Assembly (NCBI GenBank): GCA_022539475.1
Contig: VCMS01000037.1
Location: 212,822-276,821, forward strand
Source: Gracilaria domingensis
Lineage: Eukaryota > Rhodophyta > Florideophyceae > Gracilariales > Gracilariaceae
Direction: 5' to 3'
Length of the DNA stretch: 64,000 nucleotides
The translations under genes were made by a program, and so were the position numbers. Under the pieces are notes generated by a model. That model was not told the DNA's origin, did no database searches, and was given only the letters and a program-made list of their open reading frames with translations. Below, one piece after another: positions 49,651 through 64,000 of this stretch (its first letter is position 1; each line of letters begins with the position of its first letter).

Positions 49651-51369
49651 ATGAGTGAGCTCATTATACTTGAACGAGCACGGGACAGCTTCAGTGATAT
49701 TCCAGATTTCGTCATCCATGTTGATGAGCCGGTATGGAACGTTATTGTGTTCATTTGTCTCAATCTTGTGGCTCTGCCTGCCTTGGAGTTTCTCTCTGAT
49801 CTTCTGGTTCGCAAGACTGCCACTATGAAAGTGCTCAAGGATGAGAGAATCTTACTCTCAGATTCTAGACTTGGTATTCTATCCCTCTACTCAACGTATT
49901 ATGGACGATATCGATGCCTCATGTTCATGATACTCCTTGGAGTGATGGTCATTGTTATGGAGACATTCGCAGAATTCTGCAGTTCCTCAGCAGAGCTCAG
50001 TGAACAAACACGCGTAGATGTATGGAAAATTAACGAATGGCATAACTATTCCTACATTCATGGAGGCAGGGGCGGAAGTCGGGAAGGAGAAGGTCCTCAA
50101 GAATCGAACCAATCGAACCGTGAGATAGACGACTATGTTTCCGCGAAGGAAGTGATATTGAGAGAGGACAGGCTGGAATCAGTGATGCACTCGAAAGACT
50201 GTATATTTGGTGTAGAGAACTTAGTTCTTGGACTGAATGACTCTGGAAGCACCCTTGACGTTGAACCAGTTGTTCGTCCTCACTACATGGAGACACTATT
50301 GTCATCATCAAAGCTGTACCTGTCCAAAGATAACAGTAGCATCGTTTGTGATTATTTCAAATCGAGGCCAAGGGTGATCGAAGTATGGATGCCTGCCGTT
50401 GGCAGAGACAATGGCACATACTTCACTGCTCCTGCTCGCATTCATGCTCTGCGCAAGGGCTCCCGACCTCCTATCAACTGGTCTAAACGAGTAACAGTTG
50501 GCCAGTCGCAACATACTGCTTACGGGTTCCGCCATGGAAGGTTAGGTGTGAACAAAGAGAATGAGGATGCGTATACGTGTCTTCAAATGTTTGACGAAGA
50601 TAAATGCGAGGATACGTGTGAATCTGTAGCATGCGCTTTTTACGCTATTCGTAACTACACGCTGATGTTTGGTTTCGGAGAAGGCTCTATCCTGAGTACG
50701 GACGAGGGGCGCATTGTTGATATCAGACGTTGGAGAATGGAAAGCAGAAGTGATATAGATAACAACAAGGAGAAGGATAAGAGCAAGAGCAAGAGCAAGA
50801 GCAAGAGTACGAGTACGAGTGAGAAACAGTCTAATAAGGCTTCGAGCATAGTTCCTCTATCTGTACGAACGTTTCGATTTGTGGTACGCATGTATTTGGA
50901 AGGTTATATTTGGGCATCTCAGAACGAAGAAGTGGAAAAAAGACGAGTGGTTGCCATGACAAGATATGAACGAAGCCTAAGCAGTGAAGCGCTAGTGAAC
51001 GGAGAGCTTCGAGAACTGGAATCTACTTTCATTCAACCGCGGCCTGATTTCGTACGACAAGTACCAACAATAACGGCGCTTGCAGCAATTCCACTACTGC
51101 TGTTCCTGCTCGTCGTAATTTTTCAACTGCTTGTGCTCAGAAGACTGGAGCGAAAGATTAGAATGAGAAAAACGACGCGTTGTGTGACGAAAGGAGCTGC
51201 TAAAGTGGAGACTAGTATGCAATGGTTTCGAAGGGATTTTGTGAAATTGCTTGAGAGTCAAGGGTTTCACGCAGAGCTGGAGGACATATCGCTTCGGTTG
51301 GTGAGAACCAGCGGGAAGAGCCGGTTGGGTATCCTGCCGCGCATTGGTACGCACAACAAGCAGCCATGA
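49651..51369 (+). CDS. Membrane protein A of a novel three-member family
   Basis: 572-aa protein with no family I recognise, paralogous to the genes at 53224-54606 and 56355-57965. Plan: short N-terminus; TM1 at about 29-49 (WNVIVFICLNLVALPALEFL); a conserved loop RKTATMKVLKDERILLSDSR and LGILSLYSTYYG; TM2 at about 88-108 (LMFMILLGVMVIVMETFAEF); a large, presumably extracytosolic domain of about 350 residues with several N-x-S/T sites and a cysteine motif CEDTCESVACAFYAIRN; TM3 at about 475-497 (ALAAIPLLLFLLVVIFQLLV); and a C-terminal tail with VETSMQWFRRDFVKLLESQG. A Lys-Ser run (residues 370-390) comes from an AAGAGC microsatellite and is missing in the paralogs. The ATG at 49651 aligns with the start of protein C. 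Function unknown. Confidence 0.8.
   Translation: MSELIILERARDSFSDIPDFVIHVDEPVWNVIVFICLNLVALPALEFLSDLLVRKTATMKVLKDERILLSDSRLGILSLYSTYYGRYRCLMFMILLGVMVIVMETFAEFCSSSAELSEQTRVDVWKINEWHNYSYIHGGRGGSREGEGPQESNQSNREIDDYVSAKEVILREDRLESVMHSKDCIFGVENLVLGLNDSGSTLDVEPVVRPHYMETLLSSSKLYLSKDNSSIVCDYFKSRPRVIEVWMPAVGRDNGTYFTAPARIHALRKGSRPPINWSKRVTVGQSQHTAYGFRHGRLGVNKENEDAYTCLQMFDEDKCEDTCESVACAFYAIRNYTLMFGFGEGSILSTDEGRIVDIRRWRMESRSDIDNNKEKDKSKSKSKSKSTSTSEKQSNKASSIVPLSVRTFRFVVRMYLEGYIWASQNEEVEKRRVVAMTRYERSLSSEALVNGELRELESTFIQPRPDFVRQVPTITALAAIPLLLFLLVVIFQLLVLRRLERKIRMRKTTRCVTKGAAKVETSMQWFRRDFVKLLESQGFHAELEDISLRLVRTSGKSRLGILPRIGTHNKQP
50764..50825. repeat. (AAGAGC)n coding microsatellite
   Basis: AAGAGC repeats followed by AGTACG repeats inside gene A, encoding a Lys-Ser then Ser-Thr run in the extracytosolic domain. 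Absent from paralogs B and C, so it is a recent expansion. Confidence 0.85.
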
Positions 51370-52509
51370 GGGCATTGCCCTCAGTCTAACTGCTCCCTAT
51401 TCTCTGGTACAAGTAGTTCTGCCGGGGGTAAAGGGCTATCCACCTTCGTATGACCACAACAAAAAAAAGATGAGGTTGTTCGAGCACAGTTCCGGAAATG
51501 TATTACAATGCTCTATCTATAATCCATTCAGAATGTCCTCTCTGTGTCTCACAGACAAGAAATTGGCCTGAAAGTTTGGCGGAGATTTGAGTGTCAACTT
51601 ACTGCATGCCGCCACACGAACGCTTTATTGCTTGGCGGAAACTGCGCGGCAGCGAAGCGCCTGTGGTGGCACGCAGTGACAGCTTTCTATTGGAGATTTG
51701 TTTGCGCGTAGTGAGGCGCCACAAAGTTAATTCGGTTGGTGGCTGCCACAGCTTTCGTTGAGGAGCATAGGATCTGTGTCGTTTTTGGGGCTGAATTGCA
51801 CGATATCATACAAGATGTATACCCGTAGCGGCTCATCAAAACGTTCAGAATGAAAAGCATGGCCTCCCGAAATTATCGTTAGCTCTATCACGTAACCTTA
51901 CCTTTGGTACGAACAGGTACAACTATGAGACAGACCCTCATGAGTGCTTCCCATTCGAAGGTAAAGGCTTTATAAAGCCGAAAGCTCATTTTGGTTTCGA
52001 GACTTGTGCCTCTGGCCTCAGGAGAGGTCCTTGACCTCTCTTCGATGCCGCCGCTGCATTACGGTGAATTGACGGTAACGTTCGGTCACGTGTGTGACCT
52101 AGTTTCTATTTCACAGTTTCAACCGGGGAATAAAGACGTGCCGCTCACCTCACAACCTGTGTGAGTCACAAGGTGTGTCACAACGTTTTGACTCTGTTTG
52201 CCAGCCACCAACCTTCTGTGAGACAGAGCAAGAGAATGGCTCTGGAACAGCAAGCTTAGGGCAAGTGCTGCGACGATTATCTACAACTCATGCATGGGTG
52301 CGGCATGCACTGTCTTCCCATTAGGTCTATTACACGTAGAAGATTGGTCCGTGCTAACTTGAGCAACATCGCCATGAAAAAGTCTGAGGATGGAGTCATT
52401 GGGCGCACGAAGACCACCAAGATCCGCCTCGCTCCCTACATCACGCGTCGATGAGCACTCCGTGCAACAGTTACATGTGGGCTAGCTTCTGAGGTTGGAA
52501 GGCTATCAA

Positions 52510-52534
52510 GGCTAAGAGGGTGTCCCTCTTAGCC
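52510..52534. repeat. Hairpin, 11-bp perfect arms, 3-nt loop
   Basis: GGCTAAGAGGG (52510-52520), loop TGT, CCCTCTTAGCC (52524-52534). Confidence 0.92.
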
Positions 52535-52887
52535 CTGTTCCCTTGGTAACCATACCCGGTATCTAACAACTTTGTTTGGGTGGAGATCTTCGTGGTCCGT
52601 CATCGTCAAGATGTCATTGACATTATGATCGCCCCAATAAAATCAAATTTAATTCCGGCCCAACTGCTGTCAAAAGGTCGGCGGCACGTTTTCGTTTCAT
52701 TGTCACCAAACTAGTAAACGAGCAAGTGGAACAGAACTCGGAAGGGTGTAGAGACCTCTAGGAACTCATTTTGCTCTGTCCGTCGGCAGTCTGCAGCAGT
52801 GCAGCACGCACAGTACGAAGCTTCTATCATGTAAGCGTGATGTAAGATTGTAAGCCTGATAGATACACGCACGTACCGCCACCTCAT

Positions 52888-52934
52888 GCACACGAAAGCG
52901 GGCTACACGTACAGTGCAGACCGCTTTCGTGTGC
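52888..52934. repeat. Inverted repeat, 14-bp perfect arms
   Basis: GCACACGAAAGCGG (52888-52901) and CCGCTTTCGTGTGC (52921-52934) flank a 19-nt loop. The loop sequence is nearly repeated just downstream of the right arm, so arm and loop together look like a small duplicated module. Confidence 0.9.
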
Positions 52935-53223
52935 TTGCTCTACACGTAGAGTGCAGACTCTACATGTAGCCTTCTACCCTTGGTATACCCCTCTTTTCTT
53001 TGTCCAGTCCGGAATCGATTGCTCTCGGATACACTCTCGGAACACGTTCATTTCATTTGGAGGAGCTCAAAAGAAACAAACGTCTCCCTCTCTCCTTTGT
53101 GGGGTTAACATTATAAAAATATGTTCCAGGTTTTCCTGATGATGTACAAGTCACTCTCACACCAACGGTAGATGAATATATGCATGTTGAATAAACCTTC
53201 GGAAGACTTCGTTCTCTCAATGC

Positions 53224-54606
53224 TCACAAGTGCCGAGTTCCAAGTTTCACTTCCTCCGCAAGGCCATCCAACCCATTGCTCTTCAAATCCTCTACAGCAA
53301 TCTCCCTCATCCATTGCTTCGTCAGCTGAACTCTTCCAAAGTCTACCAGGCCTTCCACTTGTTTCTTCTGATGCGCCACCTTTGCCCGTAGGATTATGTC
53401 CGCAGTTAGCAACACCACCGCCAGCAAGATGAGGATGCAAAGCGGAATGGCAGCTATCGCCCTCACAGTGGCTGATTGTCTCGTGCCTTGAAAGATCGGT
53501 CGATCTACAGCATTCACACGCACTCCTGCTACTCCCTCCTCGATTGCAACATTCAAAAAGGTTTGTGCAACTTCTATGAAGGCCCTCCTCGTCAACGTCC
53601 TACGCGTTGCATTTCGACTCGAAATCCTTCGTCCTGGAAAGATGGCGTCATTTATACGCAAAGCAACCATTAACCGCCGTCGTCTGTTTCGATCGTTGAG
53701 CTTCTCCAAAGCTTCACCCGATGCTCGGAATGCAACGGATTCTAACTCGCTCAATTGCCCACTGGTGAACACTATCACAAACTTGTCGTCGCCCTCAACA
53801 ACAAGGCATGTCTCGTGCTCAAGCAAGCATATCATGCGCCTGCTTTCAAGAACGTGAATACCTTCCCTCTCAAGCAAAGGCACAGAGAGGTTGGAGAGTC
53901 TTGTCGCTTGCTGTTCGAACAAGCTCGACAGCCGGTCACAGCCCCGCGATTCCGAAACGAGTGCCAACCTATCGCTTCTGATCGTGCTACCTGGTATACC
54001 CAGACGTGGGAATTCAAACATGGCTTCCCTGTCCTTCATTGAAACGCCACATGGCACGGAAGTATTGTCCAAACCAAGATAGGGCCGCCGCATCATGAAA
54101 GTACCTTTCCATATATACCCTCTTCCCACGCCACATTGCACATTTTGTTCTTCCGGCAACATGTCACGCACTTGACCGCTACTGTTAAAACATCTATCTC
54201 CTATAGCCCACGGAAAAACAGAGGCTCGCAGGTCAAAGCCTTCAAGATCTTGGGATGTGATATCGCTATGTGCAGGTTGATTCCATACCTTCCTATCGAC
54301 AGAGGCAGGAAGCGTGACGGTTGAGAACGAGAAAGCAAACAGAATTTCGGTCATGATGACGACGGCTCCAAGCAGAAGAAGCAAGTTGCGATTTCGACGA
54401 CGTCCCCAGTACACAGAATGCAGGGACACTAGGCCATACCGGGAGTCAAACAAGTCAACCTTCTGGCCACGAAGAATGTCTAAAGTGGCTTTCGATGCCA
54501 ATACATTGTATAGAAGGAGCTCCAGCACGGTGTTGATGAAAAGCGTGAGAAACACATAGCTCATAACGTTCCATGTGGACGGGTGAATGTTGAGACTGGT
54601 CTCCAT
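53224..54606 (-). CDS. Membrane protein B of the novel three-member family
   Basis: 460-aa diverged paralog of proteins A and C. Same plan: TM1 (WNVMSYVFLTLFINTVLELL), loop with FDSRYGLVSLHSVYWG matching DSRLGILSLYSTYYG, TM2 (LLLLLGAVVIMTEILFAF), a large extracytosolic domain, TM3 (AIAAIPLCILILLAVVLL) and a tail with KQWMREIAVEDLKSNGLDGL matching MQWFRRDFVKLLESQGFHAEL. It lacks the double-cysteine motif and is about 100 residues shorter in the central domain. The first in-frame ATG is at 54606. It lies in reverse orientation between A and C. I do not recognise any outside relative. Confidence 0.78.
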   Translation of the reverse strand: METSLNIHPSTWNVMSYVFLTLFINTVLELLLYNVLASKATLDILRGQKVDLFDSRYGLVSLHSVYWGRRRNRNLLLLLGAVVIMTEILFAFSFSTVTLPASVDRKVWNQPAHSDITSQDLEGFDLRASVFPWAIGDRCFNSSGQVRDMLPEEQNVQCGVGRGYIWKGTFMMRRPYLGLDNTSVPCGVSMKDREAMFEFPRLGIPGSTIRSDRLALVSESRGCDRLSSLFEQQATRLSNLSVPLLEREGIHVLESRRMICLLEHETCLVVEGDDKFVIVFTSGQLSELESVAFRASGEALEKLNDRNRRRRLMVALRINDAIFPGRRISSRNATRRTLTRRAFIEVAQTFLNVAIEEGVAGVRVNAVDRPIFQGTRQSATVRAIAAIPLCILILLAVVLLTADIILRAKVAHQKKQVEGLVDFGRVQLTKQWMREIAVEDLKSNGLDGLAEEVKLGTRHL

Positions 54607-56354
54607 TCTCACAGGTTCGAAAGCTTTCCCTACTCTCAGGTTTGATGCAGTAACAAAGCTTTACCAATGAAAGCGAGTGTGACGTAGTGTGGAACTCGAA
54701 ACGGTAGTTGCGCCACGTCAAATGTCGAGGGCGAATGAAAGGAGGCGTGGCAAGAGTGTTACAATCATGGACAGAGATATGAATGGCAACAAGCCGCTGA
54801 TGGGATAAGGCCGATGGGGATTCGTGCAAAGGTAGCTCATGCTTGAGCAAGATTGCGGTAGTGGGGTGGCTCAAAATGCAGGTGCATTGATGGGCGCGAC
54901 AGTACTAGTACTGACGCTGCGGATGTCGGCAGTTTTAGCTCCAGTATCTACGAGTCGTACGACAGCACAGTACAAATAATCTGGCGAGAGCTTCTTGCGT
55001 GCGTTGGGGCTCTGGTCTCCGGTGTAAACTTACAACGTTCGTCAGAACTTTCAGTGGTTGTTATTTGTTTCGACGCAGATTTGTCCACACGCCCACGGAC
55101 TTCTCTACTGAACCCACGAGATGCATTGTCGAGTCCTCGTTGACCATACTATTTATTGACGTGGTGCTTGATGACCAAGTCTGGAGCACACTTCTAATGT
55201 TTATTTAAACGGTGTCATGTACGGGTTGGGAAACGTCCCTCCGAAGTTCTGGCTACATGTGGAAATAGTGGCCATGCGAGTTGCAGGAAACTATGTATCT
55301 AATCTTGGTACGGAACTTGCAGACGCTGGAAAAGGATAGAAGAATCTAAAGAGAGAGCTTGAGCCAAATAGCTAACCTTCTGTTGTTCCAAGCTTTTTGA
55401 ATGCAGTTGTTATCAACGAATGAATGGCAACGACTTCCAAGTCTTGACGTACCAGTGTTCTATCTTTCGCTCGTATGGCGAAGTTCGGAGAGCATTCGCT
55501 CTGAAGATGAAAAGTGCTCCTCGATTCAATCAAATCAGGAATGATTGGCTGGCATATGCTTAACTGTTACCTTTGACTCTCTTGTCATTGCGGTTTGGGG
55601 CTACGGGCTGAGAGCTTTTGTTTCTGTTGGATTTCATTGGTTGAATGAAATTATTCCACAAGAAAGCAGCCTTTTTGACAAAAGCAACGGTTCACAACTG
55701 ATTGATGAACACGTGACCCCAACGGCAGAACTGATCATTCGCAATACTTGTGACTACCCTTGTATGGTAGTCTGCCAGAACACTGATAGAATTGCATTGA
55801 TTGCTCTCTCGAGCGAGAAAATGCGCCCAAAACTTCTGACGTGCGTGCATGCATGCATGCACGTGCACCCCCAAAATGCAAAAAGGAATGAAATATATTC
55901 TTTTTTGGTCTGTAATTTCAAGCGTTTCGGATGGGGCAGCAGGAGATCCTATCCATCAGGATATCATCGACGATGACCAGGGGTACACGTGCCAGCCAGC
56001 AGGTCCGGTGACCGCGGTGAAAAAGGCCTCGAGTGGAGTGGTCTCGCGCGGTCGTCGTACGACTGTAATGTACGGCAATCGCAAGTGCGCCATCTTGGAG
56101 GCGATACTTCGACGCCACGTCACCTTAATCACATACAGGCACACGTGCTTGAGCAACGCCTAGCTACCATCATTCATATCGTGCGCAACGTTTTCGTCAC
56201 ACGTCAGGTTCCACTTCATTCGAAGGGAGCTGCATTTGCTAGTCTCTCTTCACATCAGGCGGATGTCTCTCGATGCTACCCTTGGTATTGCTGAGCTCTC
56301 TCGAGTTTTCAGTTTCGACCCCGAGCCCTTTCGCTTGGCGGTCTATGCGCCACC
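54607..56354. other. Divergent intergenic region B/C
   Basis: 1.75 kb between the divergent starts of B and C, so it should contain both promoters. A 14-bp palindrome CAGTACTAGTACTG lies at about 54900. Open frames at 55545-55976 and 55849-56163 are short, overlap each other and have no recognised similarity. No repeat family identified. Confidence 0.5.
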
Positions 56355-57965
56355 ATGAACAGCACAGTAATCCTTGAGCCCCCAAAGAAGTTTCTGAGCC
56401 ACATCCCACAGCTAGTCGTAAGCGTGGATGAACCGGTATGGAACGTAATCGTGTTCATATGTCTCAACCTCATCGCACTCCCCATCATGGAATTCCTTGC
56501 CGATCTTCTCGTGCGCAAAACGGCCTCCGCAAAGATCCTAAAAGACGAGAGCATCCTACTTGTTGACTCGAGACTGGGAATTCTTTCATTGTACTCCACC
56601 TATTACGGCAAACATCGAAATCTCTTCTTCATGATACTGCTTGGCACACTAGTAATTATCATTGAGACCTTTGCAGAGTTCTCTAGTTCTTCCACAGAGC
56701 TCAGGGAAAGAGTTAGCACGGATGTTTGGAAGATGAAAGCTGCACATAATCATTCTTACATTTTTGACGAACCACCTGGGAACGGAAATCGGTCTGATGA
56801 GCAGATCGTGCAGTTGCGAGATGAACGACTGGGGTCCATCATGCACTCTACAGATTGCGTTTTTGCGCCGGATCTGCACCTGCAAGCGAACGAAGCGAGA
56901 CCAGGTAGAGACCTGAATCAAGTTATCCGCTTTCACTCCGTTCTGACGAATGCATCTGTTCTGAAACTGTTTTTGTCCGCTGATAATTCTACCGTGGCTT
57001 GCGATTACTATTCGGAGAAGAGAAGACGACTACAAGTGTGGCTGCCAGCCGTGCGCCGACGAGATGATAGATATGTAACATCGGCATCACGATTTGGACT
57101 TCTTCGCAACAGCTCTTTTTTCGACATAAACTGGACAAGAAGAGTCAGAATTGGAGATACCATTTACAGCATGTATGGGTATCGAAACCAAATCCCTAGC
57201 TTTGACAGGATGTTTTCAAACGCGTTTACTTGTCTGCAAATCTTTGATGACGAAGAATGTGGCGATTCGTGCGAGTCGGTAGGATGCGCGTTCTATGCTG
57301 TCCGGAATTTCACGTATACTTTTGGATTTGGAGAGGGGTCTATTGTGAACCAAGAAGGCCAACAGACTGTGAACATTCGCAGATGGAGAATGGAAGCAAC
57401 TGGTAACACTGGAAGAGGAGAAGTGAAGCGTGACTCATTTGAAATCTCATATGAAGAGCAATCCATGCGTTTTGTGCTGAGAATGCATCTGGAAGCATAC
57501 ATATGGGCAACTAATGAGGAGCAAATAGAGGTCAGACGTGTCGAAGTCATGTCAAAATACTTGCTGGGCATGACAGGAGAAGCGCATATCAACGGAGAGA
57601 TTGGGGAGTTGAGAAACAAGTTCATACAGCCAAGTGCTGATAGAGTTCGTCAAGCACCGACAGTCACCGTGATAGCTATCATTCCGCTAGCCCTCTTCAT
57701 CTTGACCACGACGTTGCAATTGGTTGAGCTGAGAATGCTGCAGTTAAGAATCCGAAAAGGTAAAGATTCTAGACATGTCTCAAAGGGCGGGGCCGAGGTA
57801 GAGACCAGCATGCAGTGGTTTCGCCGCGACATGTTGAAGATGGTGAGAACTCTGGGCATCAAAGCCGAACTGCAGGACGTATCCCTGAGACTCGTCGCTC
57901 AGAATGGCAAACGGAGGTTGAAGTTTCTGCCAGACTTGAACAACTTGCCTCAAACGCCGTTGTGA
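56355..57965 (+). CDS. Membrane protein C of the novel three-member family
   Basis: 536-aa close paralog of protein A, alignable from residue 1 with no gap through TM2. TM1 at about 29-49 (WNVIVFICLNLIALPIMEFL), loop RKTASAKILKDESILLVDSR with LGILSLYSTYYG, TM2 at about 88-108, extracytosolic domain with many N-x-S/T sites and the motif CGDSCESVGCAFYAVRNFT, TM3 (VIAIIPLALFILTTTLQLVE), then VETSMQWFRRDMLKMVRTLG. The ATG has a CCACC context. Strong N- and C-terminal conservation against a variable central domain suggests that the membrane/cytosolic part does a fixed job while the outer domain diversifies. Function unknown. Confidence 0.8.
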   Translation: MNSTVILEPPKKFLSHIPQLVVSVDEPVWNVIVFICLNLIALPIMEFLADLLVRKTASAKILKDESILLVDSRLGILSLYSTYYGKHRNLFFMILLGTLVIIIETFAEFSSSSTELRERVSTDVWKMKAAHNHSYIFDEPPGNGNRSDEQIVQLRDERLGSIMHSTDCVFAPDLHLQANEARPGRDLNQVIRFHSVLTNASVLKLFLSADNSTVACDYYSEKRRRLQVWLPAVRRRDDRYVTSASRFGLLRNSSFFDINWTRRVRIGDTIYSMYGYRNQIPSFDRMFSNAFTCLQIFDDEECGDSCESVGCAFYAVRNFTYTFGFGEGSIVNQEGQQTVNIRRWRMEATGNTGRGEVKRDSFEISYEEQSMRFVLRMHLEAYIWATNEEQIEVRRVEVMSKYLLGMTGEAHINGEIGELRNKFIQPSADRVRQAPTVTVIAIIPLALFILTTTLQLVELRMLQLRIRKGKDSRHVSKGGAEVETSMQWFRRDMLKMVRTLGIKAELQDVSLRLVAQNGKRRLKFLPDLNNLPQTPL

Positions 57966-58491
57966 ATACAGGGGGGTACCGCAGTGTTCGGGCGTGCAAT
58001 GTCTGTAATTGTTATCTATCATAGCGTGACCAGCTCCGTCGAAACGAATGGCGTCGTTTCTCCTGGTTGTCGTAGGGCCTACACTTGTACTTTTCTTCTA
58101 TCTAACCAGTCAACATCAAATGTGTCAAAAATTGGACAGCGCGTAAAAAGGTGATAATTCAGGTACCTGTCGGTCGCTTCATACCTGAACAGGTATGTGA
58201 AAACGCCATTTTGGTGATGGCGTCGGCGGTTACAGCCGAAGGGGGCAAAAACGATAAAGATAAAGTTTGCTCTCGTAGAGTACCAGTCCAATCGGACAAA
58301 GAAGCACTAGCCAAATATAAGCTTACGTAGATAAGAGTGCGACAGAAGCCAAACAAAGCACGGACACAAGAACAGAAGAGGGATACCGAACGTGGACAAG
58401 AAGATAAAGAAGAACAAACAAGGATAATATATGTAATGAGATATGAATAGAAATGTGTCACACCTAAACAATGAAAAAAGAGACCTGTGCT
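57966..58491. other. Short intergenic gap
   Basis: 526 bp between convergent genes. One 8-bp-arm hairpin, CATACCTG-AA-CAGGTATG (58180-58197). Nothing else seen. Confidence 0.5.
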
Positions 58492-59010
58492 CTAAAAGAT
58501 AGTACTGTTCTTCTTTCTAAGTGTCGCACGATGACGGCGGCTTCTGTAGTGGACGCGCAGATTGTAGGCTTCAGAGAACCGGATCTCGCAAGCCTCGAAG
58601 TTAATATCTAGCTCGGTGTAGTTTTCACGGCGCAAAGCTATGCGATAGCGACGGCCGGCTTCATGGACTTCAAGCTGCCGCTGGCTCTGGACTTTGATGT
58701 CACAGACACGACAGCGTTTGAAGATTCGCTTACGCGGCGGACGGTTACGACGGCGCTTCTCCTTCTGAGTGGCTACGCGAAAGATATGGCGCTCGCGTGG
58801 CCCGTCAAGAGGCCGCAAAGCCGACTTCTTTATCTGCGGAACGGGATTGGGGACTTCTCCTAGACGCTCGTCCTGGTCGATTTCGGACGAATACTCGCTG
58901 GATGAAAAGAAAGACGTTGGCACTTGATTTGAAACAAACAAGAAGTTAGTAGTCAGACAAAATGCCAAAAGAGCAGCTGAGAACAACTTAGTCTTGAATG
59001 ATTGCCTCAC
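58492..59010 (-). CDS. Hydrophobic leader plus U1-type zinc-finger protein, 5' end uncertain
   Basis: About 172 codons, unrecognised as a whole. After a hydrophobic leader (KLFSAALLAFCLTTNFLFVS) comes a polar region, a strongly basic patch (KEKRRRNRPPRKR), then a finger-like CRVCDIKVQSQRQLEVHEAG and a second, degenerate one (CEIRFSEAYNLRVHYRSRRH) resembling the dsRNA/U1-type C2H2 finger (C-x2-C-x12-H). In the first the last histidine is lost, in the second the first cysteine. The frame has no ATG: it is closed by TAA near 59020 and could only begin with GTG. Since CTATTAAC-x10-AG precedes the leader, a 3' exon of a longer gene is plausible; the upstream exon is not found. A signal-type leader on a nucleic-acid-binding finger is odd. 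Confidence 0.45.
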   Translation of the reverse strand: MRQSFKTKLFSAALLAFCLTTNFLFVSNQVPTSFFSSSEYSSEIDQDERLGEVPNPVPQIKKSALRPLDGPRERHIFRVATQKEKRRRNRPPRKRIFKRCRVCDIKVQSQRQLEVHEAGRRYRIALRRENYTELDINFEACEIRFSEAYNLRVHYRSRRHRATLRKKNSTIF

Positions 59011-60340
59011 GGCCGTAGGTTAATAGGAAGTTTACGCCGATTCACACAGTGTGTCTAGCAACAACAGGTGCAAAGCAACACTATGTGAGTAACGGATGTA
59101 GAGCAAAACGCCCTTTTGTGGGGATGCACCGAGGTGCTTTTCATAGTTTGTTGATCCGTCATCGGCTTCGACACCTCAGGTTATGAGAGGCTACTGGGGT
59201 AGTGCCCTATTTTGGGTTATGCCTAGGAAGGGTAGTATTTCTGCACACGTGTGCCAAGTTGACCCGATAGCGGGTGCGCCGTGGCAAGCCTGCCACGGTT
59301 GCACACCTGTAGTGTATTGGCCGGCAGCGCCAGATAGTTAGATATTTTAATTGATATTTTCAAGTGCCGTATATAAGTGGCGGCACTTGCCGCCACTGTA
59401 CGGGAAGTAAACCTCAACGAGGCCTTTGGCTCTGATCTTCTTGCCGCTTGCGCACGGTCACCAGCCCCATCGTGGGGAATACCGCCGCAATTCCGGGCTG
59501 ATCAACCAACCTCCGTCCCTGAGGAGTACTAATCCGTCGTCACGGCACTTTTCTTATCTATTTTATTGTTTTCATTTCCGTCTTACGGCTTTCGCTACTC
59601 TGCCCTACATTGTAGGTTTGTTTTATTTGTCTCGGGAGTTTTCCCGCTTATCGCGAGTCAGTGCTCCGCAGTGCGGCTCGTTTGTCGATCTTTTGTCGTC
59701 CCATACCGTTGGGCTGGATACCCCCACTCGCTGTGGCTCGCCGGAACCATCCGGATACCTACGCCGATTCTACCCCTTTTACCTCCGACTGCACGCCCAG
59801 ATCGGGGCCACCCGGATTTACACCCGGCTCGTGTTGGCCCTATCGGAGGGTTCTGCCGCTCGACTGCCCTTCACAGGGAGCAGGGCCTGAACACCCTGAG
59901 GTGCTCGTCCGCGACGCGGTTTGTTGCTTCCCGTCGAGGGTTTTGCACCACAAACTGGTCTCCCGACCTAGAATCGGCTTTATTGGCCAACAATCGTTGG
60001 AGCTGGTTCGTTTGATTAGAGCCCAGATAGTTGGGAATATCCGTTCTTACGGTTCTCTCATTGTCCGTTTTCGGAAGTTGTTTTGGTTGCCCATTGGCCG
60101 ACTGTGTCGGTGAACGATGTCCTCCCGTCGCAGGAGTGGCGCGCCACGTGCCGCTTCTGTGCCCGGTTCGTCCGGCTTGCCGGCAAGTTTGCCTCCGTTG
60201 CCGAAGGACGCACTGGAGGTCCCAGGCAATGGCGACCCGAAACCGGCTTCCCGGGGCCGCCGTTCTGATAACGGGACCCACCCACTCGTGGGCCAACTGA
60301 AACCGCACCTGCGGCTGATGCCGCCGCAGCGGTTGACGTT
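59011..60340. other. LTR and leader region of the gypsy element
   Basis: 1.3 kb without a cellular gene. Contains a TATA box set in nested inverted repeats (59361-59397) and the possible primer-binding site at 60230. The overlapping ORFs between 59426 and 60300 in all frames have no domain and are likely incidental to leader sequence. Confidence 0.55.
59370..59376 (+). promoter_or_regulatory. TATA box in candidate LTR
   Basis: TATATAA lies in the loop of the inverted repeat CAAGTGCCG (59361-59369)/CGGCACTTG (59381-59389). A competing hairpin AGTGGCGG/CCGCCACT (59376-59383 and 59390-59397) follows. Transcription would start near 59400. Confidence 0.5.
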
Positions 60341-62125
60341 ATGTCGTCGCGGTCCGACGAGTATACCCTCCGTGAATTAGAGGCTCAAGTTCGCATTCTG
60401 CAGAACTCCCAAGTGGGCCTCATCCGGGATATTACGAAGCTCCGGCAACGGCTCGATGAAGCCGGTGTCCGGGATGTTTCGAGCGACGTCCGTGTTTTAC
60501 GGTCTGATGTCAACCAGATTATGGAACACCGACAGGTGTCGGCTGGTCTGCACGAGCAGGCTGCCGCACGCCTGGACCGCCTGGCTACCCGTCTGGAGAC
60601 GGTCGAGCAAATCATCGTATCTGATGCTGTTGCGCCGGGAGCCCCGGTTTCTGAGGGTTCTCAGCACTCGCGCCGTTCCCGGGATCGTCCGGCAAAGAAG
60701 AAGGTCAAGGTTGAGTCTGACTCGTCTTCTTCATCCTCTTCTGATGAGGAGGGCCCCAAAAAGGGATCGTCTACCGACTCTTCGGACAGCGCGGAAGAGC
60801 GCTCTCACTATCGTGCATCCCGTTCGCGGGCTACTGAAGCCACTTCTGGCGTTGCACGAGGCCGTACAAAAGGACGGAGACACCTCGGATTGAAGGAGTT
60901 GAAGCCGACAAACTTACTGTATCGGAAGCTGCTATCTTACCGATATTATCGGCTTGATGACACGACGCCACAGAGGACCCCACCTGGGACTGGCAAAGTG
61001 CGAAATCATCTCCGACAAATGGAGCTCACGCTAAAGCCCCACAAGTTCTCTGGGGAAGATCCAATTCTGGTCTTGGATTTTCTTAGCCGCTTCGTAGCGG
61101 AAGCCGATGTACTTCGGATGAGTGAGGCACAGGCCTACATCGCGCTGCCGTACTTTTTGACGGGTGTAGCCGAAGATCAATTCAATTCGGTTCGTGGGTC
61201 GTCTCGCGCCTCCGAAGGAGAAGTTACGTGCTGGCCGGAAGCGGTACAATATCTCCTGCGCTCTTACGCGACAGGCAATGCGATACAAGGTGCCATACTC
61301 GCGCTACGAGACACGAAGCAAGGAGCCGAAGAGTCGGAAACCGTTTATTCGACCCGCCTCAATAAGGCTTTCCACAGATGTGGCAACGTGTTCTCCGCAG
61401 CCGAGCGGTGTACGATGTTTGTTGATGGACTGGACCGATCAATTCGGACGTTGGTAGCCCATTATCGGGAGAACAAACGCCGGATTACCTATCTGGAACT
61501 CGTTCAATTTGCCCAAGCGGAGGGAGATGCAGCTCGAGCACGCACTGGCATCAAGGCGCGCACGCGCCGACTCCTTCATGTAGAAGGCCGAGACTCCTCA
61601 CTGCCTCATTCGCGAGGTTCTGTTCAAGGGGGTTATGATAACCTGCACCTGTTACAGGACGATGGTTCAATGCCGAGTTCGGAATTGCCGTCGACGACGG
61701 AGCAGTCTACAGTGGATGCAGACCCCGCTCTGTACGCCGGACGTCAAGTCCCGGCATTGCCCGTGCCGCACTCTGGCGGATATCGAAGCCAACGCCCTGG
61801 ATGGAGGGACCCGTATCCTCCTCGACAGGAGCGCCGGCCGCCCAACGCGGATCTTCTTCGTCACCTTATTTGTCATACCTGTTACAGGCCAGGGCACATC
61901 GCTCCGAATTGCTTAATGCCCATACGGGATATGGCGAAGATAGTGCCTCAGTATGAGTCGTTGACGCCCGCCGAGCGGGAACGTGTTCCCGACAAATCGT
62001 ACCTTCGTGCGAAGGCGGAGACTCAGCCTGGAAACCAGGAAACGGTGCCATCGAATGGTGGAACTGTAGCCGCCCCTGCGGAACCGCAACCTCCGCAGAT
62101 TGGCGGCGACGCTCAGAAAAACTGA
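60341..62125 (+). CDS. gag: Gypsy Gag polyprotein
   Basis: 594-aa capsid/nucleocapsid protein. N-terminal coiled coil (LRELEAQVRILQNSQ ... ITKLRQRLDEAG), a Ser/Lys-rich region, the retrotransposon gag domain (LTLKPHKFSGEDPILVLDFL through YREN near residue 380), and one CCHC zinc knuckle CHTCYRPGHIAPNC at residues 511-524. The ORF is intact, unlike pol. The product would assemble virus-like particles around the element RNA. The start is the ATG closest upstream of the coiled coil. The stop codon directly follows a slippery-type AAAAAC. Confidence 0.85.
   Translation: MSSRSDEYTLRELEAQVRILQNSQVGLIRDITKLRQRLDEAGVRDVSSDVRVLRSDVNQIMEHRQVSAGLHEQAAARLDRLATRLETVEQIIVSDAVAPGAPVSEGSQHSRRSRDRPAKKKVKVESDSSSSSSSDEEGPKKGSSTDSSDSAEERSHYRASRSRATEATSGVARGRTKGRRHLGLKELKPTNLLYRKLLSYRYYRLDDTTPQRTPPGTGKVRNHLRQMELTLKPHKFSGEDPILVLDFLSRFVAEADVLRMSEAQAYIALPYFLTGVAEDQFNSVRGSSRASEGEVTCWPEAVQYLLRSYATGNAIQGAILALRDTKQGAEESETVYSTRLNKAFHRCGNVFSAAERCTMFVDGLDRSIRTLVAHYRENKRRITYLELVQFAQAEGDAARARTGIKARTRRLLHVEGRDSSLPHSRGSVQGGYDNLHLLQDDGSMPSSELPSTTEQSTVDADPALYAGRQVPALPVPHSGGYRSQRPGWRDPYPPRQERRPPNADLLRHLICHTCYRPGHIAPNCLMPIRDMAKIVPQYESLTPAERERVPDKSYLRAKAETQPGNQETVPSNGGTVAAPAEPQPPQIGGDAQKN
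62116..62125 (+). promoter_or_regulatory. Candidate -1 ribosomal frameshift site at gag end
   Basis: The gag frame ends CAG AAA AAC TGA. The protease frame is open in -1 across this point, so slippage on AAA AAC would continue into pol. The heptamer G-AAA-AAC differs from the ideal A-AAA-AAC at its first base. A possible stem, GAGGC/GCCTC with loop TGCGAA, lies downstream near 62181-62196. Confidence 0.45.
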
Positions 62126-64000
62126 GCAAGGGAGCCTCCAGCAATGGAGAGGCGCCCCCAGCGACGGGGTTTAGTGCGCCTGAGGCTGCGAAGCCTCGCT
62201 CCCCGGTCACAATCCTTTCGAGGAAACTGGCCACTACAGACGTGGACTCTGAGCACCTTGGTGTCTTGCGTCGCCCGTGGATACGGTCTAAGAACAGCCG
62301 GTTCCCGGATAGAGTCCTGGTCATGGCGAAACGTAACTACAAAGTTTACGCCGACCTAGGTGTTTCCGACCAGTACATGGTTCGGCAGTTGTCCGTGCTC
62401 GATACAGGAGCTGGGCCAAACTTTTGGTTGAGTCTATGATTCCGCCGCACTTGCGGTCTCGCGTTCGTGCGGCGCCGCAGATTGATATAGCGGATGCGAA
62501 CAATCGGCCACTTTCGACTGTGGGAGTAATAGACCTGCTCGTCAGGCTTGGCCGCTACGTGGCGAAGCTCGATTTCTTGGTTTGCAAGCAACTCGCTGCG
62601 CCGGTTATCCTCGGCTGCGACTTCTGTGACCGCTTCGTCGATGCAATTCGACCGCGGAAGCGAACCATCGAGATGGAAGATGGGACTACTGTACCGTTCG
62701 GCGACCCCTTAGAAGGCTCTGAAGAAGCAAGTGCCATTGCCTGCTGCGCAGAAGCCTACAGCCGATGAACGGAAGTCTACAAAGCTCGAGTAGCTCGGCC
62801 CATTTCCATCCCGCCTGAATCACAGGTCTGGGTTACTGTGACCTCCCCACAATGTGGCTTACAAACGGTACAACCGTTGCCTGCGTTACAGGAGAAGCAT
62901 CAGCTTGCCCTCGCTAATGGGATTGTTTTCGTCGAACCCGAGAAGCCTTTTCAGGTGCTGGTTGCGAACTTCAGCCGTTTTTCTCAACGGTTGGTTAGGA
63001 GCCAAGTTATTGGTTCGTTGCTTCCGCATCCTGCGGCTATAGTGCCTACTCAGGTTTCTATTGCCGAGGTTCTCGGAATCCTCGAAGCTGAGGAGGGGGA
63101 GGCGGAACGGAAAATTCCGAAACGACTGGACCGAACAGTTCGTCGGAAGATGCTACGCCGACTTCGTCGGATGCAAATAACCGCAGCCTGTCGAAGGAGG
63201 CAATGCCGACCTCGTCGACAGTAATGATACGGACCTGAGTGCTGCTGACACGAAGGATAAGGCAGTACAGGAACTGGAGTCTCTGGATCTTGAACATGTC
63301 CCAGAGACTCACCGCGATAAATTGCGGCACATGCTTGAGGAGTTCACGCCCATGTGGGATGGCACTCTGGGTAAGATTGGTATTACCGAACATCGGATTG
63401 ATTTGCTACCGAATACTCGGCCCATTTCACAGCACCCTTACAGGGCAGGACCGACAGCTCGCAGGAGGAGAAAGCTCAAGTTGAGAAGATGCTCCGCGCT
63501 GGAGTTATCGAGCCAGGCCAGTCACCTTGGGCATCGCCGGTGTGCATCTCGCCCAAACTGATGGTCTTGGCGAATTTTGCACTATACGATAACCGCAAGC
63601 TAAACGGCGGCTACGGTCAAGGATGTGTATCCATATCCCACGAATGGAGAATGAATCGATTCATTTGGCGACGCGAAAAGTAGTTCCACAACCCTAGACG
63701 TCGAATTGGGCTATTGGCAGTACCGTGAGGGCTGAGGATGCGTGACAAAGACAAAGCCCTTCCGTTTTCATGAAGGTTTTACGAGTTCAATCGGATTGCC
63801 CTTTGAAAAACTACAGACTTCAAAATCGAACGCCGCCAGCCACTTTTCAACGAAGCTGTGGATATTTCTGCTAGCCCGCTTAATGGAAGACAGTCCTGGT
63901 AGACCCTGAGATGACATTATTGTCTTACTCCAGCAACCTGATGAGCACTGACCCACGTACGGGATGTGATGCGGAGTCCTACAGCGATGCAGCATTACGC
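62122..64000 (+). pseudogene. pol: Frameshifted gypsy pol (protease, reverse transcriptase)
   Basis: Aspartic protease with the catalytic motif DTGAG at 62401-62415, followed within ten codons by a frame change near 62420; the distal protease part continues to about 62760 (AAPVILGCDFCDRF). The reverse transcriptase starts around 63250 (MLEEFTPMWDGTLGKIGITE), changes frame near 63465, and shows further stops and indels (about 63590-63750). Near 63911 GATGACATTATTGTC preserves the Asp-Asp-Ile-Ile part of the RT active-site box, but the preceding residues are out of frame. RNase H and integrase lie beyond the window. The copy is therefore non-autonomous. Confidence 0.8.

Follow-up and report, generated by a model that had tools for sequence, protein, structure and literature searches.

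Three neighbouring genes of Gracilaria domingensis belong to a large, apparently undescribed family of predicted three-pass membrane proteins with a putative role in recognition

A stretch of 64,000 nucleotides from the red alga Gracilaria domingensis (assembly GCA_022539475.1, contig VCMS01000037.1; G000:C37:212822-276821, hereafter the window) carries three intact single-exon genes, A, B and C, each predicted to encode a three-pass membrane protein. They are part of a large and fast-diverging family, encoded by single exons and predicted to be membrane glycoproteins with three passes. Tentatively, and with somewhat less than even confidence, its members are read as hetero-oligomers that serve in sensing or recognition. 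The family is apparently undescribed and is best read as lineage-specific, a reading that rests on a search for eukaryotic homologues in this one genome (77,892,253 bases in 680 contigs). Contig C680 of the same genome has phycobiliprotein genes, and its allophycocyanin beta product is most similar to PDB chain 5tjf_B of Gracilaria chilensis (E 4.2e-101), in keeping with a red alga of the Gracilariales.

A preliminary description of the window had presented A, B and C as three open genes. The coordinates were rechecked and all three open reading frames (ORFs) are open (Table 1). As described there, A can be aligned with C over the full length, with 278 of 572 residues identical (49%). The match of B to A covers 105 residues (32% identity, E 3e-15) and that to C 257 columns (25% identity, E 2e-17); the match between B and C in the third transmembrane segment (TM3) and tail is weak (25 of 98 residues identical, E 9e-6). 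All three proteins contain the DSRxGxxSLxSxYxG loop and the QWxR tail, and the CxxxCESVxCAFYA motif is missing from B, again as described. Of 38 sequences checked, only A and C have CxxxCESVxC; a similar stretch is present in the decayed C91 copy. Within subfamily I, A and C group together in a deep clade with full support. B is placed in the core of this subfamily, at an uncertain position; the tree program flagged a meeting of long branches, those of C113p, A and one further sequence. The stop codon of B (53224-53226) is premature relative to the C-terminal end of its relatives. The tblastn alignments of C235p and C133m extend 45 and 42 bp beyond the coding end of B; the final segment of its tail may have been lost. 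Chance ORFs are rejected because paralogues retain the frame with a proportion of nonsynonymous differences (pN) well below that of synonymous differences (pS).

The family had been described as having three members. Own-genome searches started from C and B, and chained through C133p, C113m, C113p, C137, C52, C206b, C206c and C15b, identified at least 37 intact single-exon members (all counts are lower bounds) and additional decayed relics. The intact members are spread over 24 contigs, which does not support a purely local diversification. The family comprises five or more diverged subfamilies, denoted I, III, IV, V and VI (the label II is unused). The 36 extracted members comprise eight of subfamily I, including A, B and C, two of III, 14 of IV and 12 of V; the 37th (C15:152761-154152) represents a further type, VI. 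The count excludes the relics (C235, which is frameshifted, C91, C109, C604, C190, C147, C72 and C74) and two fragments (C42:315443 and C305:27266). Also left out were C408, where two places have scores equal to that of C285, and C42:302548-303690, which was not taken as intact since its match begins only at residue ~98-115. C105m carries one TAG stop and is included in the tree, outside the 36 and the 37.

Profile comparisons connect most of the subfamilies. Local hhalign alignments of 94-108 columns, all N-terminal, link I with IV (E 3.7e-9), V (1.3e-7) and III (4e-8), and III with IV (2.3e-7) and V (1.9e-8). Subfamilies IV and V align over 447 columns (E 2.4e-9), and a forced global alignment of III with IV failed (E 0.61). 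Subfamily VI is tied to the family through single-protein matches alone (best E 1.4e-5). The TM1 motif [FWSLI]N[VIL] is present in 38/38 sequences, a pattern that was also used when choosing start codons. The acidic-[FYL]-[SAC] end of TM2 is found in 37 of the 38, the exception being B.

All members have a common layout of a short N-terminus, TM1, a basic loop, TM2 with an ELxLEFS-like end, an ectodomain rich in cysteines and sequons, TM3 and a short tail. By hydropathy, TM1, TM2 and TM3 lie at equivalent places in 36/36 members. The ectodomain contains 196 sequons compared to 88.4 ± 9.0 in composition-matched shuffles (0/500 reach 196), a 2.2-fold enrichment. Sequons are depleted in the loop (2, with 6.5 expected) and at chance level in the tail (8, with 10.1 expected). 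Lysine plus arginine per 100 residues amount to 21.2 in the loop, 9.9 in the ectodomain and 17.5 in the tail. These distributions support a lumenal or outer ectodomain with loop and tail in the cytosol. Ten residues that include four cysteines (M1, F12, N13, E86, L89, C140, P150, C170, C282 and C311), together with W412, L416 and W454, are invariant in all 26 members of subfamilies IV and V (numbered by the first row of their alignment). E86 lies in TM2; the TM2 Glu is absent from subfamilies III and VI. C113m lacks the tail Trp, and for several rows the script output gives as first Trp of the tail one other than that of the motif.

The proposal of constant ends around a variable, glycosylatable outer domain holds in part. 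The ectodomain is diverse, and the N-terminal part is conserved family-wide, being the most conserved part, above the ectodomain, in 11/14 paralogue pairs. The C-terminal tail, on the other hand, is not constant across the family apart from its Trp. In nine of the 14 pairs TM3 and tail are less conserved than the ectodomain; A/C is among the five exceptions, with 51% for TM3 and tail and a slightly lower 45% for the ectodomain.

The family is under purifying selection. The ratio of nonsynonymous to synonymous substitution rates (dN/dS, NG86) is 0.12-0.52 in 12/14 paralogue pairs. The other two are A/C (pN 0.32, pS 0.81) and C235p/C133p, both of which have saturated synonymous sites. There is no convincing sign of positive selection, as pN roughly matches or marginally exceeds pS in only a few windows. 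In the tandem pairs C349a/b (L052, L070) and C206a/b (L051), identity drops abruptly past the first ~100 codons. These codons are 93-100% identical in DNA (pS ≤0.15); in the ectodomain, identity is locally as low as 54-65% (pS mostly 0.3-0.9). The simplest reading is gene conversion of the N-terminal third, the alternative being a strong constraint on the DNA itself.

Family members are frequently neighbours. A family neighbour lies at most 6 kb away for 26/37 intact members. Adjacent pairs were defined by the same distance, with decayed partners included only at C235 and C105. Head-to-head pairs are B/C at C37, C133, C113, C235 (one partner decayed), C292, C187 and C105 (one partner with a TAG stop); thus two of the six loci other than B/C have one broken partner. 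Tandem pairs are C206a/b, C305, C61, C73 and C349, and convergent pairs are A/B, C206b/c and C15.

At several loci the partners have matching histories. Of the subfamily IV partners at C292, C187 and C105, one set of three genes forms one clade and the other set another, both branching as (C292,(C187,C105)) with supports of 100/99 to 100/100. The dS values of the two C187/C105 comparisons are similar (1.31 and 1.14) and therefore consistent with copying of both partners in one event. C305a/C61a and C305b/C61b form parallel subtrees (dS 0.75 and 1.11). In subfamily I, C235p is sister to C133p (96/99). Four broken pieces of C235m are sufficiently long, and they have C133m as best match (45-58% identity, 45-193 bits), compared to ≤67 bits with any other member. 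From the congruent partner subtrees and the C235/C133 partner matches we infer that whole two-gene units, not single genes alone, were copied in at least four events. B and C share the head-to-head layout; the divergence between A and C is too great to reveal a matching history. The alternating orientation of A, B and C had been ascribed to inversion during duplication. A local inversion is rejected, since the B(-)/C(+) layout recurs at six other loci and partners show matching duplications; the orientation looks inherited with the pair, as the partners duplicated in parallel at several of these loci. No non-family ORF of ≥90 codons matches between the four subfamily I loci (E≤1e-6; flanks of at least 1.5 kb on each side). 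Blastn detected no similarity among five intergenic regions (B/C, the A/B interval and those of three other subfamily I pairs); no shared promoter sequence was detected in this way.

The proteins had been described as lacking recognised relatives, and no usable match was obtained in Pfam, NCBIfam, PHROGs or PDB sequences. A Pfam scan of A, B and C yielded nothing above cut-off. In scans of 8 and 26 members no LRR, LysM, malectin, WAK or lectin ectodomain family is among the matches, with the sole exception of the concanavalin A-like model Laminin_G_3 (1/26 members, E 0.05). Neither A, B and C nor these members match an NB-ARC, TIR, LRR or P2X/ENaC/Cys-loop channel family. The weak rows GldD_lipo (E 2.4e-4, 1/26), DUF7144 (2.3e-3, 2/26) and DUF6085 (1.5e-3, 1/8) were judged to be chance because each matches one or two members. 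NCBIfam matched 0/8 members and PHROGs 0/8 at E≤0.01, subfamilies III-VI not being part of this set. Among PDB sequences, the matches of gene C to a capsid protein (E 0.079) and of profile A2 to ribosomal S4 (E 0.15) were also judged to be chance; profile A6 had no match at E≤10. Two of the 37 proteins were queried against viral contigs, with no pattern match for gene C and six pattern matches but no relatives for C61b. In prokaryote genomes, C61b gave ten pattern matches and no relatives. BFVD contained no match at E≤0.001. In the literature, judged by titles and the beginning of abstracts, no family of such layout was found, which is weak evidence of novelty.

The structure model of gene C (8 sequences, mean predicted local distance difference test (pLDDT) 47.1) is too poor for use. 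The fold is therefore described from the model of a subfamily IV relative, C61:96588-98099, which is fair (pLDDT 77.5). In this model a beta-rich ectodomain is suspended between two TM helices on long strands. Foldseek returned 0/855 matches at E≤0.001. The best matches (avidin permutant, START and lipocalin-like barrels; E 0.04-0.4, probability ≤0.25 among the best 50 of 855) were not used.

A receptor or recognition function, as suggested in the preliminary description, is compatible with these data and remains putative; they are no proof of it. The combination of a fixed platform, a diverse ectodomain, heterotypic partners that duplicated together and partial homogenisation is most reminiscent of surface receptors or recognition proteins. 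The proteins would reach the cell surface, where the two members of a pair would act jointly as a hetero-oligomer. The beta-rich, disulphide-bonded and glycosylated ectodomain would bind a ligand or partner, and binding would be relayed via TM2/TM3 and the conserved TM1-basic loop-TM2 platform, with loop and short tail contacting cytosolic partners. The expected role is the sensing or recognition of the environment, microbes or other algal cells. A bolder version is distinctly improbable: a new red-algal receptor system in which dozens of three-pass surface glycoproteins, with a beta-rich ectodomain of novel fold, would act as genetically linked pairs of unlike partners and recognise microbes, parasites or non-self algal cells, their common signalling platform being homogenised by partial gene conversion. 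To our knowledge, red algal cell-surface recognition is little understood; these proteins are concrete candidates for it, given their fixed topology, their heterotypic pairs that duplicated together and an ectodomain with no recognised relative.

Several observations weigh against the main reading. One or two extra hydrophobic windows above 1.3, a lax threshold, occur in 14/36 members (highest 1.96), and the three-pass count is therefore a prediction. There is no clear positive selection, and dN/dS is below 1 as in housekeeping families. For 11/37 intact members no family neighbour was detected within 6 kb (C137, C31, C154, C52, C118, C42, C258, C62, C50, C148 and C285). The layout is not uniform, as the 15 adjacent pairs comprise seven head-to-head, five tandem and three convergent ones, and co-duplication of neighbours can be neutral. 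Furthermore, loop and tail have no known signalling domain, and the proteins might reside in the endoplasmic reticulum (ER) or another endomembrane.

As an alternative, the genes would encode ER/Golgi endomembrane cargo, wall-polysaccharide or glycan-handling proteins multiplied by neutral duplication, an explanation considered unlikely. A new type of ligand-gated channel subunit, with TM2 and TM3 flanking the ectodomain, an extra N-terminal TM and pairs forming heteromeric channels, would resemble P2X or ENaC-type channels, in which two helices flank the ectodomain. This is decidedly unlikely: the fold search gave no significant match, the weak matches seem to be mainly helix-on-helix judging from the alignment ranges, no pore signature was noted and the basic TM1-TM2 loop is unlike a re-entrant pore loop.

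Spread of the pairs by mobile elements, as cargo or as degenerating insertions, would account for subfamily I pairs at different loci with no shared flanking ORFs, for the numerous relics and for the gag-like ORF downstream of C that recurs ~3.4 kb from the C109 relic. It is nevertheless highly unlikely, as the frames are maintained under purifying selection and the co-duplications are old (dS 0.75-1.31). No terminal repeats or transposases were noticed among ORFs ≥200 aa at L044-L046, where no search was aimed at them. Sexual or somatic cell-cell recognition or fusion (gamete-trichogyne, sporeling coalescence, parasite-host contact) agrees with diversified ectodomains and pairing, and coalescence and chimerism are reported from red seaweeds (PMC5325190). 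A term search of the main text of the Gracilaria UV sex-chromosome paper found neither 'membrane' nor 'receptor' (PMC12502185), and this more specific role is very doubtful.

The B/C part of the window (51537-64000) is repeated colinearly on C574 and C635; identity is 99.8% and 99.96% for 9.9 kb and about 98% in the adjoining 4.0-4.5 kb. These copies are most simply redundant assembly, the alternative being a very recent duplication; given the colinear redundancy they were not counted as separate copies of B and C. Downstream of C, a 172-aa ORF (58492-59010, GTG start listed) has C2H2/zf-met zinc fingers and a hydrophobic N-terminus, which is unusual for a zinc-finger protein. It is followed by the 594-aa gag-like ORF (60341-62125), which has a CCHC-type knuckle by eye and no Pfam match. 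The copy near the relic at the end of contig C109 covers part of this ORF. Its position next to both C and that relic suggests retroelements near loci of the family. At one locus only, a gene with TIR, NB-ARC and WD40 domains (L048:803-3889; G000:C91:34299-37388, minus strand; Pfam TIR_2 2e-18, NB-ARC 1.8e-13) starts ~300 bp from the decayed C91 member; it is possibly a STAND/NLR-like red algal protein.

Table 1. Positions of genes A, B and C and their parts in the window.
Feature	Position	Strand	Remarks
Gene A	49651..51366	+	572 aa, single exon, three TMs; ATG at 49651 aligns with start of C
A TM1, aa 31-49	49741..49797	+	hydropathy 2.26
A TM2, aa 89-107	49915..49971	+	hydropathy; EFC follows
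A CxxxCESVxCAFYA motif, aa 319-332	50605..50646	+	
A TM3, aa 477-495	51079..51135	+	hydropathy
A tail QWFR	51220..51231	+	
Gene B	53227..54606	-	460 aa, three TMs; head-to-head neighbour of C
B TM1, aa 14-32	54511..54567	-	hydropathy
B TM2, aa 75-93	54328..54384	-	hydropathy
B TM3, aa 383-401	53404..53460	-	hydropathy
B tail QWMR	53305..53316	-	
Intergenic B/C	54607..56354	.	1.75 kb, between divergent starts
Gene C	56355..57962	+	536 aa, three TMs; closest paralogue is A
C TM1, aa 31-49	56445..56501	+	hydropathy
C TM2, aa 90-108	56622..56678	+	hydropathy
C CxxxCESVxCAFYA motif, aa 302-315	57258..57299	+	
C TM3, aa 439-457	57669..57725	+	hydropathy
C tail QWFR	57813..57824	+	

The family can be compared with several known systems. 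Trimeric channels of the P2X/ENaC type have a beta-rich ectodomain between two TM helices, as does the model of the family, which differs by its extra N-terminal TM and basic loop and by the lack of a significant fold or sequence match. Wntless (8tzr_B) is a larger multi-pass bundle compared to the three TMs of the family; the identity is 8% and the overlap is probably helical. Plant paired NLR immune receptors (nucleotide-binding leucine-rich repeat proteins) are encoded by head-to-head heterotypic partners duplicated as units, as in the A/B/C family. NLRs are cytosolic NB-ARC proteins, whereas the members described here have no NB-ARC, TIR or LRR match. Several classes of receptor-like proteins (RLPs) are reported from Glaucophyta and Rhodophyta in passages of PMC10834447, which define RLPs by one or two TMs and an absent kinase domain. 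With three predicted TMs in 36/36 members and no Pfam-recognised ectodomain, the A/B/C family lies outside this definition. Like the plant RLPs (LRR-, LysM-, WAK-, malectin- and lectin-RLPs), however, it is an expanded family with a membrane-anchored ectodomain and no kinase.

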